DNA of 64,000 nt. Source: Sphingomonadaceae bacterium (GTDB taxonomy: Bacteria > Pseudomonadota > Alphaproteobacteria > Sphingomonadales > Sphingomonadaceae). Within the stretch, counting starts at the first letter, position 1. The number at the start of each line of letters is the position of its first letter. The position numbers and the translations under genes are program-made. This document shows, piece after piece, positions 26,393-43,548 of the stretch. The notes below the pieces were generated by a model. It did no database searches, was not told the origin of the DNA, and was given only the letters and a program-made list of their open reading frames with translations. The stretch covers positions 1 through 64,000 of the forward strand of contig CANHQT010000005.1 in the NCBI GenBank assembly GCA_947463325.1. Reading direction: 5' to 3'.

Positions 26393-28258
26393 TCACCCCG
26401 CCGTCGCCAGCTTGTGCGTGATCCACTGGTCGATCTTCGCTTCAAGGATCGACAGCGGCAGAGAACCGGTCATCAGCACCTGTTCGTGGAACTCGCGAAT
26501 GTCGAACCGCGCGCCCAGCCGCTCTTCGGCATTGCGCCGCAGCCGCTGGATGGTGAGCGCGCCGATCTTATAGGCGAGCGCCTGGCTCGGGATGGCGATG
26601 TAGCGCTCGACTTCGGCGGTCGCGTCGGTGCGGCCCATATCGCTGTTGGCGAGCATATATTCGATCGCCTGATCGCGGGTCCAACCCTTGGCATGCAGGC
26701 CGGTGTCGACCACCAGTCGCATCGCGCGCAGCATTTCGTCACTCAATGTGCCGAAGCGCTGATAGGGGTCTTCATACAGGCCCATTTCATAGCCCAGCGT
26801 TTCGGCATAGAGCGCCCAGCCCTCGACATAGGCGGTGTTGCCGCCAAATCGCATGAACGGGGGCAGTCGATCATTTTCCTGCGCCAGGCTGATCTGGAAA
26901 TGGTGCCCCGGTGCGCCTTCGTGGAGATAAAGGGTGGTGATCCCGGGCGTGGTGCGGCTGGGAAGGTCATAGGCGTTGAAATAGAAAATGCCGGGCCGCG
27001 ATCCGTCCGGCGTGCCCGGTTGATAGCTGCCGCCCGCTTCGAACCGCTCGCGGAACGGTTCATAGGGGCGGATTTCCAGCGGTGCGCGCGGCAGCGTGGA
27101 GAAAAAGCGCCCGATCACCCCGTCAACGCGGCGCCCCATTTCATAATAGCGCTCGGTCAGCGCCTCGCGCGTGTCCACCTTGAACTGCGGGTCGGTACGC
27201 AGGTGGTTGAAGAATTCGGCAAGCGTGCCGTTGAAGCCGACTTCGGTCCTGATCTGCTCCATGTCTGCCCGGACGCGGGCGACCTCGCTGAGGCCGAGTT
27301 CATGGATTTCGTCGGGTGTCATGGGCAGCGTGGTGCTCTGCGCAACCAGCAGGCGGTAAAGCTGTTCGCCCCCGCGCATGTGCATGAGGCCGACGCCTTC
27401 GCGTGCGACGGGCAGATATTCGTCGCGCAGGAAATCGCGCAGACGCGTCAGCGCGGGGAAGACTTCGTTGGTCAGCGATGCGCGCAGTTTGGCGGTCTGT
27501 TCGGCCTTCTGTGCATCGGTGAGGCCATCCGGGAAGCGCGTGGCAGGCCCGCAATAGGGCGATTCTTCGAGCGGCTGTGCAAGCTGGGTGTCGAGCTGAC
27601 TGATGACATTGGTGATCGTCAGCCGCGTCTCGACGACGCCCGATGCCATGCCTTCGCGGAACCGTCCGATTGACCGGTCGATCAGCGTCGCGAACTGAGT
27701 GTGGCGCTTCAGATTATTCTCATAATCGTCAACCGAACGGAACGGTGCGCCGCCCTGACCACTCGCGAAATTGGGGTAGAAAGTGTGGACGCCGAAGAAA
27801 TGGTTGATCGGGCGGACGGTCGTCAGCGCGAGGATTTCGGGCTGGAGTCCGCGCAGCGTATCGCGCTGCTGGTATTGGAACACATCATAGGCGAGCTGAT
27901 CGGTGGGATCGAGCGCGGCCCGGTCAATCTGCGCCAGCCGGGCCAGCTCCTCTTCCGCCGCCGCGCGTTCGGCCGCGAAATAGGCATCGGTGATATTGTC
28001 GCCCAGCTGGTCCGCATAGCGCATGTCCCCCCGGAACAGCGCGAACAGCGGATTGCGGCGCAGCTGGCCTTCGTCGCTGTCGCGGAACAGTTGCCACAAG
28101 GCAGCACGCGCCGGATTTTCCTCCGCTGCCGGGGCGGCCGCGGGGGCAGGCGTGGCTGGGGCTTGTGTATGCGCAGTGGCTGCGGTCCCCGAAAGACCGA
28201 GGGGAAGAGCGCAGCCCATCAGCAGGGTGGCGCGCAGCAGCAAAGAACGACTCGTCAT
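26393..28258 (-). CDS. Exported DUF885 metallopeptidase-like protein
   Basis: The 621-residue protein has a signal peptide, a Pro/Ala linker and a DUF885 domain. The signature LYLHEGAPGHHFQISLAQEN near residue 443 contains HEGxPGHH, which resembles a zinc peptidase motif, and AYVEGWALYAETLG supplies a likely third ligand region. The family is thought to contain periplasmic carboxypeptidase-like hydrolases. The ribosome binding site is buried in a perfect hairpin at 28262-28290, so translation may be controlled. Confidence 0.88.
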   Translation of the reverse strand: MTSRSLLLRATLLMGCALPLGLSGTAATAHTQAPATPAPAAAPAAEENPARAALWQLFRDSDEGQLRRNPLFALFRGDMRYADQLGDNITDAYFAAERAAAEEELARLAQIDRAALDPTDQLAYDVFQYQQRDTLRGLQPEILALTTVRPINHFFGVHTFYPNFASGQGGAPFRSVDDYENNLKRHTQFATLIDRSIGRFREGMASGVVETRLTITNVISQLDTQLAQPLEESPYCGPATRFPDGLTDAQKAEQTAKLRASLTNEVFPALTRLRDFLRDEYLPVAREGVGLMHMRGGEQLYRLLVAQSTTLPMTPDEIHELGLSEVARVRADMEQIRTEVGFNGTLAEFFNHLRTDPQFKVDTREALTERYYEMGRRVDGVIGRFFSTLPRAPLEIRPYEPFRERFEAGGSYQPGTPDGSRPGIFYFNAYDLPSRTTPGITTLYLHEGAPGHHFQISLAQENDRLPPFMRFGGNTAYVEGWALYAETLGYEMGLYEDPYQRFGTLSDEMLRAMRLVVDTGLHAKGWTRDQAIEYMLANSDMGRTDATAEVERYIAIPSQALAYKIGALTIQRLRRNAEERLGARFDIREFHEQVLMTGSLPLSILEAKIDQWITHKLATAG

Positions 28259-28376: not shown

Positions 28377-29717
28377 TTATTGTGGCACCGCGCGCCCGCG
28401 CACCATCACCCAGCGCACTGCTTCCAGCGTGCTGACATCGCTCAGAGGGTCGCCATCGACGGCGATGATGTCCGCCGAATAACCCACCGCGATACGACCG
28501 ATTTCATTTTCCATTCCCAGCGCCCGCGCTGCGACAGTGGTCGCGCTTGCCACCGCTTCGCGCGGGGTCATGCCGGCGTCGGTCAGCAGGCGGAACTCCT
28601 GCGCATTAAGGCCGTGTGGAAACACGCCTGCATCGGTGCCGAATGCCACCGGCACCCCGAACCGCCGGGCGAGGCGGACATTGTTGCCAAGGACTTCCAG
28701 TGTCTCGCGGATCTTCGCTTCGACCGTGGGGGTGTAAATGCCCCGACCCAGGCCATCGCGCACGCCGGTCAATGCGCGCAGCGTCGGGACGAGGTAGGTC
28801 CCGCGTGAGGCCATCGCCCGTGCCGCTGCCTCGTCCATGAAGGTGCCATGGTCGATGGTGGCGATGCCGGCCTCAGCCGCTTCCTGGATACCGCGCGCGC
28901 CATGGGCATGCGCCATCACACGCAAGCCCAACCGCTGAGCGGTGCTGGCGATGGAAGCCATTTCCTCCGGCGTGAAATGCGCTTCGAGGCCACGACCCTG
29001 CTGTGACAGGACGCCGCCGGTGGCTGTGATCTTGATCACGTCGCTGCCTGCTGCCGATGCTTGCCGCACGCGCAGCGCGCATTCGACTGGCCCGGTGCAG
29101 GCAAAGCCGGTCGGCAGCGCTTCCAGCACTTCCCGGCGGAAACCGGTGATGTCGCCATGCCCGCCGACAATCGACAGCGCCGGCCCGGCTGCGACAATGC
29201 GCGGCCCCGGCACGACCCCCGCGGCCGTCGCGCGGCGCAGCACGAACGCAGTCTCGCGCGCTGAACCTGCTTCTCGTACAGTGGTGAAACCGGCACGCAC
29301 GGTGCGCTCGGCATTGCGCACACCGATGATCACGCCCCATTCGTCGGGATCGACTGCCTCGCGCCAGAATTCGCCGGAAGGATCGCCGGTCAGGTGGACA
29401 TGCATGTCGATGAGGCCCGGCATCACTGTGCGGGTGGACATGTCGACGACGGTCGCCCCTTCCGGCGCGGGCTGAATGCCCTGCGCGATGGCGCTGATCC
29501 GCCCGTCGGTCACAGTGATGGTCGCAGGGCCGCTGATGCCGGTCGCGGCGTCGGCGATCAGGCGCCCCGCATGAATCACGGTGACTGTAGGTCCAGTGGT
29601 GCCTTGCGCCGCCATGTCCGGCGCGGCCATGCCCAGCATATTGTCATGCGCAATGCTGGCTGCCGGCATGATTAGGGCCGATGCTGCGAGCAGCGCGGCG
29701 GCGATGGTGCGTGTCAT
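28377..29717 (-). CDS. Exported amidohydrolase (Xaa-Pro/imidazolonepropionase-like)
   Basis: The 446-residue protein has a signal peptide (to ~SIAHD) and an amidohydrolase TIM barrel: metal motif MPGLIDMHVHL near residue 83, MAHAHGARGI and IDHGTF, and the catalytic Asp in AFGTDAG. Members of this exported group hydrolyse dipeptides with C-terminal Arg/Lys or other amides. Together with the next gene downstream, DUF885, it suggests periplasmic peptide breakdown. The ATG at 29717 is preferred to longer frames because the signal peptide starts there. Confidence 0.88.
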   Translation of the reverse strand: MTRTIAAALLAASALIMPAASIAHDNMLGMAAPDMAAQGTTGPTVTVIHAGRLIADAATGISGPATITVTDGRISAIAQGIQPAPEGATVVDMSTRTVMPGLIDMHVHLTGDPSGEFWREAVDPDEWGVIIGVRNAERTVRAGFTTVREAGSARETAFVLRRATAAGVVPGPRIVAAGPALSIVGGHGDITGFRREVLEALPTGFACTGPVECALRVRQASAAGSDVIKITATGGVLSQQGRGLEAHFTPEEMASIASTAQRLGLRVMAHAHGARGIQEAAEAGIATIDHGTFMDEAAARAMASRGTYLVPTLRALTGVRDGLGRGIYTPTVEAKIRETLEVLGNNVRLARRFGVPVAFGTDAGVFPHGLNAQEFRLLTDAGMTPREAVASATTVAARALGMENEIGRIAVGYSADIIAVDGDPLSDVSTLEAVRWVMVRGRAVPQ

Positions 29718-29782: not shown

Positions 29783-29818
29783 AAAACAGTGGGGCGGAAA
29801 GCCTCTGCTTCCCGCCCC
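29783..29818 (-). terminator. Intrinsic terminator of the RcnB-like gene
   Basis: On the minus strand a 12-bp stem (one A-C mismatch) with a 4-base loop, arms 29818-29807 and 29802-29791, is followed within 4 bases by TTTT (29786-29783). It lies 22 bases after the stop of the RcnB-like gene. Confidence 0.65.
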
Positions 29819-29839: not shown

Positions 29840-31000
29840 TTACCAGAAGAAGTTGTTGATCACATCGACCACTTCGCCCGACCGGACATCGACCAGCAGC
29901 GCATCGTCGTAATAGCGCACCCAGCGATAGGGGCCCCACACATCGGGCAGGCGATAGGTCCATGGGTCGTGGATCCAGTAGCGTTCGCTGTAGAACAGCG
30001 GCCATAGGGAAAAGCCGATATTCAAGCGGCGATAGCGCCAGTCACGATAGGGTGAATGATAGCGGCCAAGCCGAAACACGTCGCTGTACCGCTGGCGGTG
30101 AGACCACCAGTCAAAGCGGCGGTCATTGCGCCAGCGATTGTCCCACCGCCGGGCGATCCGGTTGTCATAGCGGTCGCGCCGGTCCCACACGTCATAGTGG
30201 TCGCGGTCGTAGCGACGGTCGATCCGGCCATTGCGGTTGCGGTCCCACCGCCGGTCGAGGTTGCCGTCACGGTTGCGATCCCACCGCCGGTCAAGGTCGC
30301 CGTCACGGTTGCGATCCCAACGCCGGTCTACCCGGCCGTTGCGGTTTTCGTCCCAGCGGCGGTCGACACGGTTGTCATCGTTTCTGTCCCAGCGCCGGTC
30401 ATCGTAGCGCGGGTCAATCGGCGGAGAGGATCGGCGCGCATCGCGAATGATCCGCTCGCCGAATTCGCCATCGCGCCGCCGCTCTTCCCGCACAGCTTCA
30501 CCGGCATCGCTGCGGCGATCCTGCCAGCGCGCCCCATCGCTGCCGTCGCGACGGCGGTCCCATCGCGGACCCTCGGCGCCATCGCGCCGGTCCTGCCATC
30601 GCGGGCCCTCACCGCTGTCGCGGCGATTATCCCATCGTGGGGCCTCGCTGCTGTCACGGCGGTCCTGCCAGCGCGGTGCGGCATCAGGCATGCGGATGGC
30701 TTCACCGGTGCGGCCACCCCAGCCGCGGCCCTCGCGGGGCGGACGTGCTTCACCGCCGCCTCGCCGCTCGCCGCGGCGCTGGAAGCTCGGCGAATCGTCC
30801 ACTGTCTCGACGCGTTCGGGCTGCGGCGCGCGCGACCGGGGCAGATCGACTCTGCGAACGGGGCGGATCACTGGCTCGCCGCTTGGCTCTGGTGCGTCGC
30901 GAATGATGTCTTCGCTCAAATCCTGCGCGAGTGCAGGGGCGATCGGGGTCAATGCCGTTGCCGCCACCAGCAACATACCAACCAGTCGGATAGGCTTCAT
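29840..31000 (-). CDS. RcnB family protein with two blocks of 12-residue repeats
   Basis: The 386-residue protein has a signal peptide ending at ALAQ (~26). Residues 109-168 are five consecutive 12-residue repeats of the form PRWQDRRDGAEG. Residues 202-273 are six 12-residue repeats of the form RRWDRNRDGDLD, whose D-x-N-x-D-G-x-L-D resembles an EF-hand calcium loop. The final ~70 residues (GPYRWVRYYDDALLVDVRSGEVVDVI) are an RcnB domain, a periplasmic domain linked to nickel/cobalt homeostasis in E. coli. The protein is extremely rich in Arg, Asp and Trp. GGAGG lies 8 bases before the ATG. Confidence 0.87.
   Translation of the reverse strand: MKPIRLVGMLLVAATALTPIAPALAQDLSEDIIRDAPEPSGEPVIRPVRRVDLPRSRAPQPERVETVDDSPSFQRRGERRGGGEARPPREGRGWGGRTGEAIRMPDAAPRWQDRRDSSEAPRWDNRRDSGEGPRWQDRRDGAEGPRWDRRRDGSDGARWQDRRSDAGEAVREERRRDGEFGERIIRDARRSSPPIDPRYDDRRWDRNDDNRVDRRWDENRNGRVDRRWDRNRDGDLDRRWDRNRDGNLDRRWDRNRNGRIDRRYDRDHYDVWDRRDRYDNRIARRWDNRWRNDRRFDWWSHRQRYSDVFRLGRYHSPYRDWRYRRLNIGFSLWPLFYSERYWIHDPWTYRLPDVWGPYRWVRYYDDALLVDVRSGEVVDVINNFFW
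30182..30397 (-). repeat. Six 36-bp repeats coding EF-hand-like 12-mers
   Basis: The DNA for residues 202-273 of the RcnB-like protein repeats with a 36-base period. The middle copies are nearly identical; the first and last have diverged. It reads RRWDRNRDGDLD with small changes. Confidence 0.85.
30497..30676 (-). repeat. Five 36-bp repeats coding PRW-type 12-mers
   Basis: Residues 109-168 of the RcnB-like protein are five tandem 12-mers (PRWQDRRD plus four small/acidic residues). The period of 36 bases is the same as in the second block, but the sequence differs, so the two blocks expanded separately. Confidence 0.85.
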
Positions 31001-42153: not shown

Positions 42154-43548
42154 TCAGGCGGCGTCGCGCTCCTGCGATCCATCCTTGCCCTTGGCGAACT
42201 TGCGCCGGGCGACCAGCGCGGCCGCCGCTGCACCGAACAGCAGCATCATCGGCGGGGCCGGCACATCGTGCGGGCCACCCGAAGAACCGCCGCTCGAAGA
42301 GGAGGACGAGCTGCTCGAAGAAGAGGAGCTGCTGCTCGACGACGAGGAGGAAGACGAGCTGGCACCCGAAGAGGTGCTGGTCGAACCGAAGCTCGATGAC
42401 CCGCCCGACGATGAGGACGAAGACGAAGACGAGCTGGAGCTGCTTGACGACGACGAGGATGAGCTACCGCCCGAGGATGAGCTACCGCCCGAGGAGGAGC
42501 TGCCACCCGAAGATGAGCTGCCGCCCGACGATGAGCCGCCGCCCGACGATGAGCCGCCGCCCGAGGAGGTGCTGGTCGAACCAAAGCTCGATGAACCGCC
42601 ATAGCTGGATGAGCCACCCGAACCACCGCTCGAACCGCCGCTCGATGAGGAGCTTGACGACGAGGAGCTGGAAGAACTGCTGCTGCTCGACGACGAGGAA
42701 GAGGAAGAGCTGCTGACTCCCGATGAGGTCGAAACGCCGCCGGTTGAGGTGCTCACGCCGGATGATGTGCTGACGCCGCCTGTCGATGTGGACACACCCG
42801 AGGAGGTGGAAACGCCGCCGGTTGAGGTGCTGACCCCACCCGTGGATGTCGAGACACCTCCAGTCGAGCTGCTCACACCCCCGGTGGATGTCGAGACACC
42901 CCCGGTCGAACTGGTCGAGCTGATCCCGCCGGTGGAGGTGGATACCCCGCCTGAGGTGCTCGATGAGGTCGAGCTCACGCCGCCTGAGGTCGAGCTCACG
43001 CCCCCGGTCGAGGTCGAGCTGCCGCCGGACGTCGAGCTGACGCCGCCGGTCGAGGTTGAGCTGCCGCCTGAACCGCCGCTCGATGTCGAGGTCGATCCGG
43101 TCGAGGTCGAAGAGATGATGATGCTGCCGCTCGAACCGCCGCCACCGCCGCCGCCAAAGAAGCCGCCGAAAAATCCGCCGCCGAACCCGCCACCGAAACC
43201 GCCGCCGCCGATGATGATCGGTGCGCCACCGCTTCCACCAGCCCATTCGCCCTGCGGGCCGGGACGATAGAAGGCTGCCGGCTGGGTGATCACGGTCGGC
43301 TGGCCGGGGATGATCGTGCGGCGTGTCACCACCCGCCGAACGCGCTGGACGCTGCGGGCGCGGGTCGCGGCAACACGGCGCGGCTGGACTGTGCGCTGGA
43401 CGACGCGAGCGCGCATCTTGGGTGCGGTGCGCACCTGCTGCACTTCTGCGCGGGCCGGAGCCTGCGAGATCTGTACGGCACCGCCGCCGATTAGCGCGCC
43501 GCCGCAAGTGCAAGCGCAGAGTTTTGCCAGGGCCATCCGAACGGACAT
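42154..43548 (-). CDS. Ser/Gly-rich surface-type protein with sorting-signal-like C-terminus
   Basis: The 464-residue protein has an N-terminal signal-like segment, an Arg-rich stretch (~35-80, [20 protein letters not shown]), a Gly-rich stretch (~115-140) and then ~290 residues of Ser/Gly/Thr repeats such as [15 protein letters not shown] and long Ser runs. The C-terminus is [11 protein letters not shown] plus a hydrophobic helix and ARRKF, i.e. the three-part layout of PEP-CTERM sorting signals, though with a 13-residue tail. It may be an exported, glycosylated or cell-surface protein. No exosortase gene is in the window. It stands alone with its own terminator. Confidence 0.8.
42274..43206 (-). 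repeat. Low-complexity Gly/Ser/Thr coding repeats
   Basis: Short in-frame repeats coding G, S and T fill most of the gene: Gly-rich first, then STGGV units of about 6-8 residues, then (S)n-GG. The serine codons are varied (TCG, AGC, TCC), so this is protein-level rather than simple DNA slippage repeat. Confidence 0.8.

Follow-up and report, generated by a model that had tools for sequence, protein, structure and literature searches.

The window analysed here, a 64,000-nucleotide stretch of a Sphingomonadaceae genome, encodes an RcnB-type protein in which two blocks of 12-residue repeats lie ahead of the C-terminal domain, the second with the aspartate spacing of a calcium-binding EF-hand loop (Table 1). 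The question raised by this locus is whether such a chain of loops is a metal-binding device, as the initial annotation had proposed in describing a periplasmic cation sink, or a by-product of repeat slippage in a tract rich in arginine and aspartate.

The RcnB domain named in that annotation was recovered well over the curated Pfam cut-off (41.4 bits against 25.9, E 1.3e-10), the only PF11776 match in the 2.29-Mb assembly. The RcnB-like protein looks exported, and its residues 27-386 are composed of 24.4% arginine and 6.4% tryptophan. In an NCBIfam search the window protein fell in no family, while CigR was weakly matched by 13 of 28 family members (best E 0.008); a PDB sequence search with the window protein gave no match at E up to 1. 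ORFs antisense to the repeats were attributed to the periodic, GC-rich codons there.

Table 1. Positions of the RcnB-type gene, the parts of its product and the adjoining features in the window.
Feature	Coordinates	Strand	Remarks
RcnB-type protein CDS	29840..31000	minus	386 aa; ATG at 31000, stop 29840-29842
Putative Sec-type signal peptide	30926..31000	minus	residues 1-25 (...APALA/QD, cleavage at the slash); by inspection
Repeat block 1	30500..30679	minus	residues 108-167; five 12-mers of APRWQDRRDSSE type, without loop grammar
Repeat block 2	30209..30388	minus	residues 205-264; five adjoining EF-hand-like 12-residue loops
Degenerate sixth unit of block 2	30173..30208	minus	residues 265-276
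RcnB domain PF11776	29864..29998	minus	residues 335-379; profile match
Intrinsic-terminator-like hairpin	29791..29818	minus	12 pairs, 9 G-C, just past the stop codon; consensus scan
Amidohydrolase (Amidohydro_1), downstream neighbour	28377..29717	minus	putatively exported (inspection)
DUF885 protein gene, next neighbour	26393..28258	minus

Both repeat blocks, with the 36-base period first reported for them, were confirmed by Tandem Repeats Finder (30216-30400 and 30512-30676) and by self-identity at a lag of 12 residues, which was 0.55 in block 1, 0.69 in block 2 and 0.10 in residues 277-386. The repeats had been called exact, a description that holds for the length of the units and not for their sequence. 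Similarly, all six 12-mers of block 2 (residues 202-273) had been assigned to the loop type; five match D.N.[DN][GN].[ILV]DRR[WY], with regular loops beginning at residues 205, 217, 229, 241 and 253, and the sixth (RRYDRDHYDVWD) is degenerate. The D-x-N-x-D-G-x-L-D spacing given for them stands as a loop pattern with the correction that position 5 is either residue, D in three and N in two of the five window loops, and 192 D and 185 N among 379 motif-selected units from 68 proteins. When residues 201-285 were shuffled 20,000 times, one loop core appeared in 182 shuffles and two in none, compared with the five observed. Block 1 is an arginine-rich repeat without the loop pattern. It was considered as a second functional array and rejected, since it has no counterpart in 27 aligned orthologues, which carry other arginine- and glutamine-rich sequence in its place; the suggestion that the two blocks belong to one device was dropped for the same reason.

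The consensus of the 379 units was D-R-N-R-[DN]-[GN]-x-[VLI]-D-R-[RQ]-[WY], in which D1 and D9 are invariant because the units were selected by the motif itself. A motif-independent alignment comprised 72 distinct proteins of 78 from the genus, the window protein and array-less proteins included (L113, L163, L165 and L166, short or unreadable, and two duplicates were dropped). Conservation in this alignment was 399/420 for D1, 398/414 for N/D3, 389/407 for D/N5, 376/401 for G/N6 and 387/404 for D9 (each 94-96%), with V/I/L/M/T at position 8 in 357/400 (89%), whereas R4 (274/409, 67%) and R7 (187/400, 47%) drifted. Judged from sequence, this retention of positions 1, 3, 5, 6, 8 and 9 beside variable positions 4 and 7 matches what EF-hands show, where ligand, turn and core residues are held and exposed ones vary. 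R10 (363/409, 89%), R/Q11 (406/417) and W/Y/F12 (395/417, 95%) are nearly as conserved as the ligands, though EF-hand chemistry needs none of them. Net charge averages +1.1 per unit, which is unusual for a Ca2+ site, and position 12 holds Asp in 11 of the 379 and Glu in none. In EF-hands the residue preceding Asp1 is often Phe, and this Phe was visible in the alignment of the array profile with PDB sequences; the usual EF-hand Glu at position 12 is displaced in the array because the aromatic residue there doubles as the residue before Asp1 of the next loop. Exact 12-residue steps joined 294 of 311 consecutive units, and copy number varied from two to eight units per protein, the variation that an orthologue alignment had been expected to reveal. 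Some seven-loop forms (L045, L062, L073 and similar proteins) contain a 15-residue step between two loops, which accounts for 11 of the 311 steps.

Comparison with Pfam profiles placed the resemblance to EF-hands in the loop alone. The array follows the EF-hand loop consensus D-x-[DN]-x-[DN]-G-x-[ILV] and shares with EF-hand_1, EF-hand_5 and EF-hand_6 the ligand positions (1, 3, 5 and 9), the turn (6) and the hydrophobic position (8), as well as the aromatic before Asp1. It differs in having neither Glu (or, in general, Asp) at position 12 nor flanking E and F helices, for which there is no room because the next loop begins after 12 residues, so that the loops are fused without spacers. The cut-out array of orthologue L006 scored 29.2 bits with EF-hand_6 (cut-off 25) and 28.4 with EF-hand_5 (cut-off 25.9), and its best-matching stretches spanned loop positions only; the cut-out window array reached 22.1 bits, just under the Pfam EF-hand cut-off. 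Eight shuffled arrays, four of which keep the 12-residue period with positions permuted inside the unit, gave no match to any EF-hand model (0/8), and three of them matched unrelated families under cut-off. Among whole proteins searched at E up to 10 (28 members, 11 families matched, with filters that drop most matches above 0.1), three EF-hand models were each matched by 26-28 of the 28, with a best E of 2.7e-5; the best EF-hand match of the entire window protein was 8.4 bits (E 2.1). The array profile found five matches in PDB sequences, all of them neuronal calcium-binding (EF-hand) proteins, at E values of 0.54-0.81 that are not significant. Block 2 does resemble EF-hand loops strung head to tail without helices, as initially described, and many orthologues conserve this likeness.

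In 27 six-loop proteins, the array had a dN/dS of ∼0.13, as against 0.26 for the C-terminal 110 residues; the set was chosen for complete six-loop arrays, which biases the ratio low. Nucleotide identity in the same proteins was 0.817 for the same copy across species and 0.698 for different copies within one protein; since cross-species identity is the higher, the copies are old and not merely homogenised. Unit 1 of the window array resembles copy 5 of six-loop orthologues and units 3 and 4 resemble copy 4, with units 2 and 5 less clear, a changed order that suggests common descent with reshuffling.

A match to the window protein was present in 86 of 148 relatives searched and, with its own genome counted, in 79 of 80 genomes of the genus. 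The match in G030 spans residues 256-385 only, like those of shorter paralogues, and was left out of the comparison. Of the 77 genus loci compared, the window's own genome aside, 62 encode at least three loops, three encode one or two, and 12 had none scored. These 12 are nine readable loop-less proteins and three that are unreadable or broken: L163 is masked or truncated, L165 has a readable frame that misses the region, and in L166 the frame is broken but holds loops. The array is also present in orthologues from Sphingorhabdus and Parasphingorhabdus. Searches of sampled genomes with the array profile returned 18 of 296 in the order, from 4 of 79 genera (threshold 1e-5, own genome counted), one of 385 in the class, which is the window itself (threshold 1e-4), and four of 398 in the phylum (threshold 1e-4, own genome counted). 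Six loci from three other genera in the order search are orthologues of the window protein, and in these samples the arrays found by profile occur only in such orthologues, in one branch of the Sphingomonadales; the sole other match, L187 in a distant member of the phylum (E 5e-5), looks like a conventional EF-hand protein.

Within this distribution the array is not universal. Among the matches listed, orthologues of Novosphingobium and erythrobacter type have arginine-rich linkers without loops. The nearest relatives of the window protein (L068/L112 and L069/L113) and a further species (L114) likewise lack loops and retain an arginine-rich linker, in which shorter R/W/D/N repeats replace them. 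Where the array is missing or reduced, other short linker repeats were seen, such as WDRNDR in L112 and DRNDNRRY in L161 and L162. The linker tract appears to change its unit length as if by slippage. A domain tree (101 columns, many open forks) placed the window and three array-less species near array-less genera; a neighbour-gene tree (midpoint-rooted, quick search) placed the window and its array-less sisters among array-bearing lineages. Loss is the favoured, if tentative, reading of the array's absence from the sister species, and the array is dispensable for the existence of the protein whether or not the sisters lost it. The orthologues answer the initial annotation's own check in two ways: the repeats are absent in part of the family, and the Asp positions are conserved where the array exists. 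Because many relatives keep the loop-defining positions but some lack the chain, the EF-loop chain probably serves a weak and accessory purpose, in metal binding or in structure.

The same data allow a different reading, in which only the composition of the arginine/aspartate/aromatic tract matters. The EF-loop look would then be a by-product of slippage in a tract rich in D, N, G and R, with no metal involved, a possibility that deserves to be taken seriously even though we lean against it; the tract might, with similarly restrained confidence, serve in binding polyanions (envelope glycolipids or cell-wall polymers) or in self-association. Consistent with this, arginine content stays at 11-29% and pI at 9.9-11.7 in the 29 readable orthologues with one loop or no array, the shorter repeats stand in for loops in close relatives, conservation at R10 and W/Y12 comes close to that of the ligand positions, and the net charge of the array is positive. 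Against composition alone speak the restriction of positions 3, 5, 6 and 8 to N/D, D/N, G/N and aliphatic or Thr, with drift at 4 and 7, and the loss of the EF-hand match in all four within-unit position permutations. Only one of 29 array-less linkers holds a single loop core, a weak argument against it that is partly circular, because holding fewer than two loop units was the criterion by which the linkers were chosen.

Structure prediction had little bearing on the loops. AlphaFold2 gave the array a pLDDT of ∼30, both for the window array with its domain and for a six-loop orthologue, values that carry no weight on either side of the question of a fold. The RcnB domain reached 72-84 over model residues 131-190 in the top model of the window construct, the remaining four models averaging 36-39, and only 52-60 in the six-loop orthologue. 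The nearest Foldseek matches of the window-domain model were 2l1s (E 6.4e-3) and CigR 4ew5 (E 1.6e-2), with none at or below 0.001. Together with the C-terminal PF11776 match, these likenesses relate the protein to the RcnB family and the CigR fold, from which it differs in its long arginine-rich linker with EF-like loops and in having no NicO partner found.

Thrombospondin type 3 repeats are short Asp-rich Ca2+ loops in series, also free of helices, and dockerin loops have a helix and Asp at position 12. The initial annotation had likened the array to both. A Ca2+-dependent rigid rod of the thrombospondin type 3 kind, spacing the RcnB/CigR domain from a surface or a partner, would suit the strict 12-residue spacing and the head-to-tail loops, arranged as in a calcium wire. 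We nevertheless consider such a rod quite unlikely: TSP3 was not among the 11 families matched by the 28 members at E up to 10, where most matches above 0.1 are filtered out, copy number changes freely, and AlphaFold2 gave no confident structure. The array further departs from thrombospondin type 3 in its aromatic residue at position 12, its arginines and its want of cysteines. With dockerin type I it has the D-x-N-x-D-G loop wording in common; the Dockerin_1 profile was matched by one of the 28 members, at E 3.4, and the array falls outside that family. Both likenesses survive as analogy only.

The array also has in common with Excalibur-like motifs of disordered proteins an EF-loop-like Asp spacing without flanking helices. 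It lies outside the Excalibur class, given as DxDxDGxxCE in the part of the source available (PMC8391695), as it has neither the Cys (0/379 units) nor the Glu at position 12. According to the same partial text, disordered EF-loop-like motifs bind Ca2+ at about 100 uM and their compaction changes (PMC8391695). Sites of the form Dx[DN]xDG are described, in the accessible portion of a second study, as occurring preferentially in proteins that are periplasmic, surface-located or secreted, and as able to originate by slippage in Asp-rich tracts (PMC3123361). Our literature search found nothing joining RcnB with EF-hand, Sphingopyxis or CigR, and the literature searched on RcnB and DxDxDG motifs, available in part, yielded no report of this array.

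Sites for nickel and cobalt usually use His and Cys. It is very improbable that the protein is, as had been proposed, a periplasmic RcnAB-like nickel/cobalt homeostasis protein with a metal sink: its PF11776 match over cut-off and its signal peptide, found by inspection, fit such a role, but NicO-family (RcnA-type) exporters gave no match in its own genome (E. coli control positive) and are rare in the genus (5/80 genomes, against 79/80 for the protein itself), which leaves the RcnA-RcnB reading without support here. In addition, His occurs in 7 and Cys in none of the 379 loop units, and close relatives have no array.

The genes next to the locus were surveyed in named relatives, the best 80 of 553 candidates, with Sphingopyxis, Sphingorhabdus and Parasphingorhabdus among them. 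The amidohydrolase was found in 43 of the 80 loci, mostly 130-300 bases downstream, and the DUF885 gene in 30, in some without the amidohydrolase; some of these loci end too early to tell. Both genes are frequent neighbours of the rcnB-like gene in Sphingopyxis/Sphingorhabdus loci. Co-transcription with the amidohydrolase is less likely because a terminator-like hairpin follows the stop codon, the consensus scan having found two in the region against 1.1 expected. Elsewhere in the window, a 464-aa protein (42154-43548, minus strand) consists largely of Ser/Gly/Thr repeats (STSTGGVSS...), with several tandem repeats reported over its gene and a PEP-CTERM-like C-terminus (18.0 bits, just under the cut-off of 20.7).

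The observation from which this analysis started is thus confirmed, and its interpretation partly supported. An obligatory cation sink is at odds with the positive charge of the mean unit, the missing ligand at position 12 and the array-less closest relatives. The explanation we propose, which to us stands about evenly between right and wrong, is that the array consists of Ca2+-type loops of weak affinity, which bring order to a polycationic linker in the envelope and form an accessory addition to an RcnB/CigR-fold protein. The protein looks exported and combines a conserved C-terminal RcnB/CigR-fold domain with a fast-changing, slippage-prone linker rich in arginine and aromatic residues. Part of this linker is, in the lineage of Sphingopyxis, Sphingorhabdus and Parasphingorhabdus, a head-to-tail array of about 3-8 EF-hand-type loops, each keeping the EF-hand side-chain ligands 1, 3, 5 and 9, turn 6 and hydrophobic 8, with the site of EF-hand Glu12 taken by the aromatic that precedes Asp1 of the next loop. 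We infer that the loops are most likely weak binders of Ca2+, or of a comparable hard cation, within the envelope, and that binding may compact or stiffen the polycationic linker. As a feature missing in some species, the array would be accessory, and neither a nickel/cobalt regulator nor an essential metal store.

Precedents exist for both steps of this proposal, the slippage origin (PMC3123361) and the weak Ca2+ binding (PMC8391695), to the extent of the text available for each. An envelope role would also be compatible with a distant case in Acinetobacter, where, according to the abstract of a 2026 report, rcnB loss was linked to membrane integrity and colistin susceptibility (PMC13371490). 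A bolder version of the proposal, which we think doubtful, is that the array represents a new calcium-loop architecture: EF-hand loops would overlap at an exact 12-residue period, Asp1 of the next loop would replace the missing twelfth ligand, and the result would be a shared-carboxylate cation wire wrapped in arginines, through which cations would turn a polycationic envelope linker from loose to ordered and back.

Should the loops bind cations, the array would offer a minimal, naturally occurring case of EF loops in series without helices. Its origin and loss can be traced among close species, with the array-less sisters as ready-made controls. The array would then show Ca2+ loops arising inside slippage-prone linkers, as is proposed for Dx[DN]xDG sites in the portion of that study available (PMC3123361), and the variable portion of an envelope family that is widespread yet poorly understood would gain a function. 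If the loops bind no cations, the locus would serve as a warning on reading EF-hand grammar in Asp/Arg-rich repeats.
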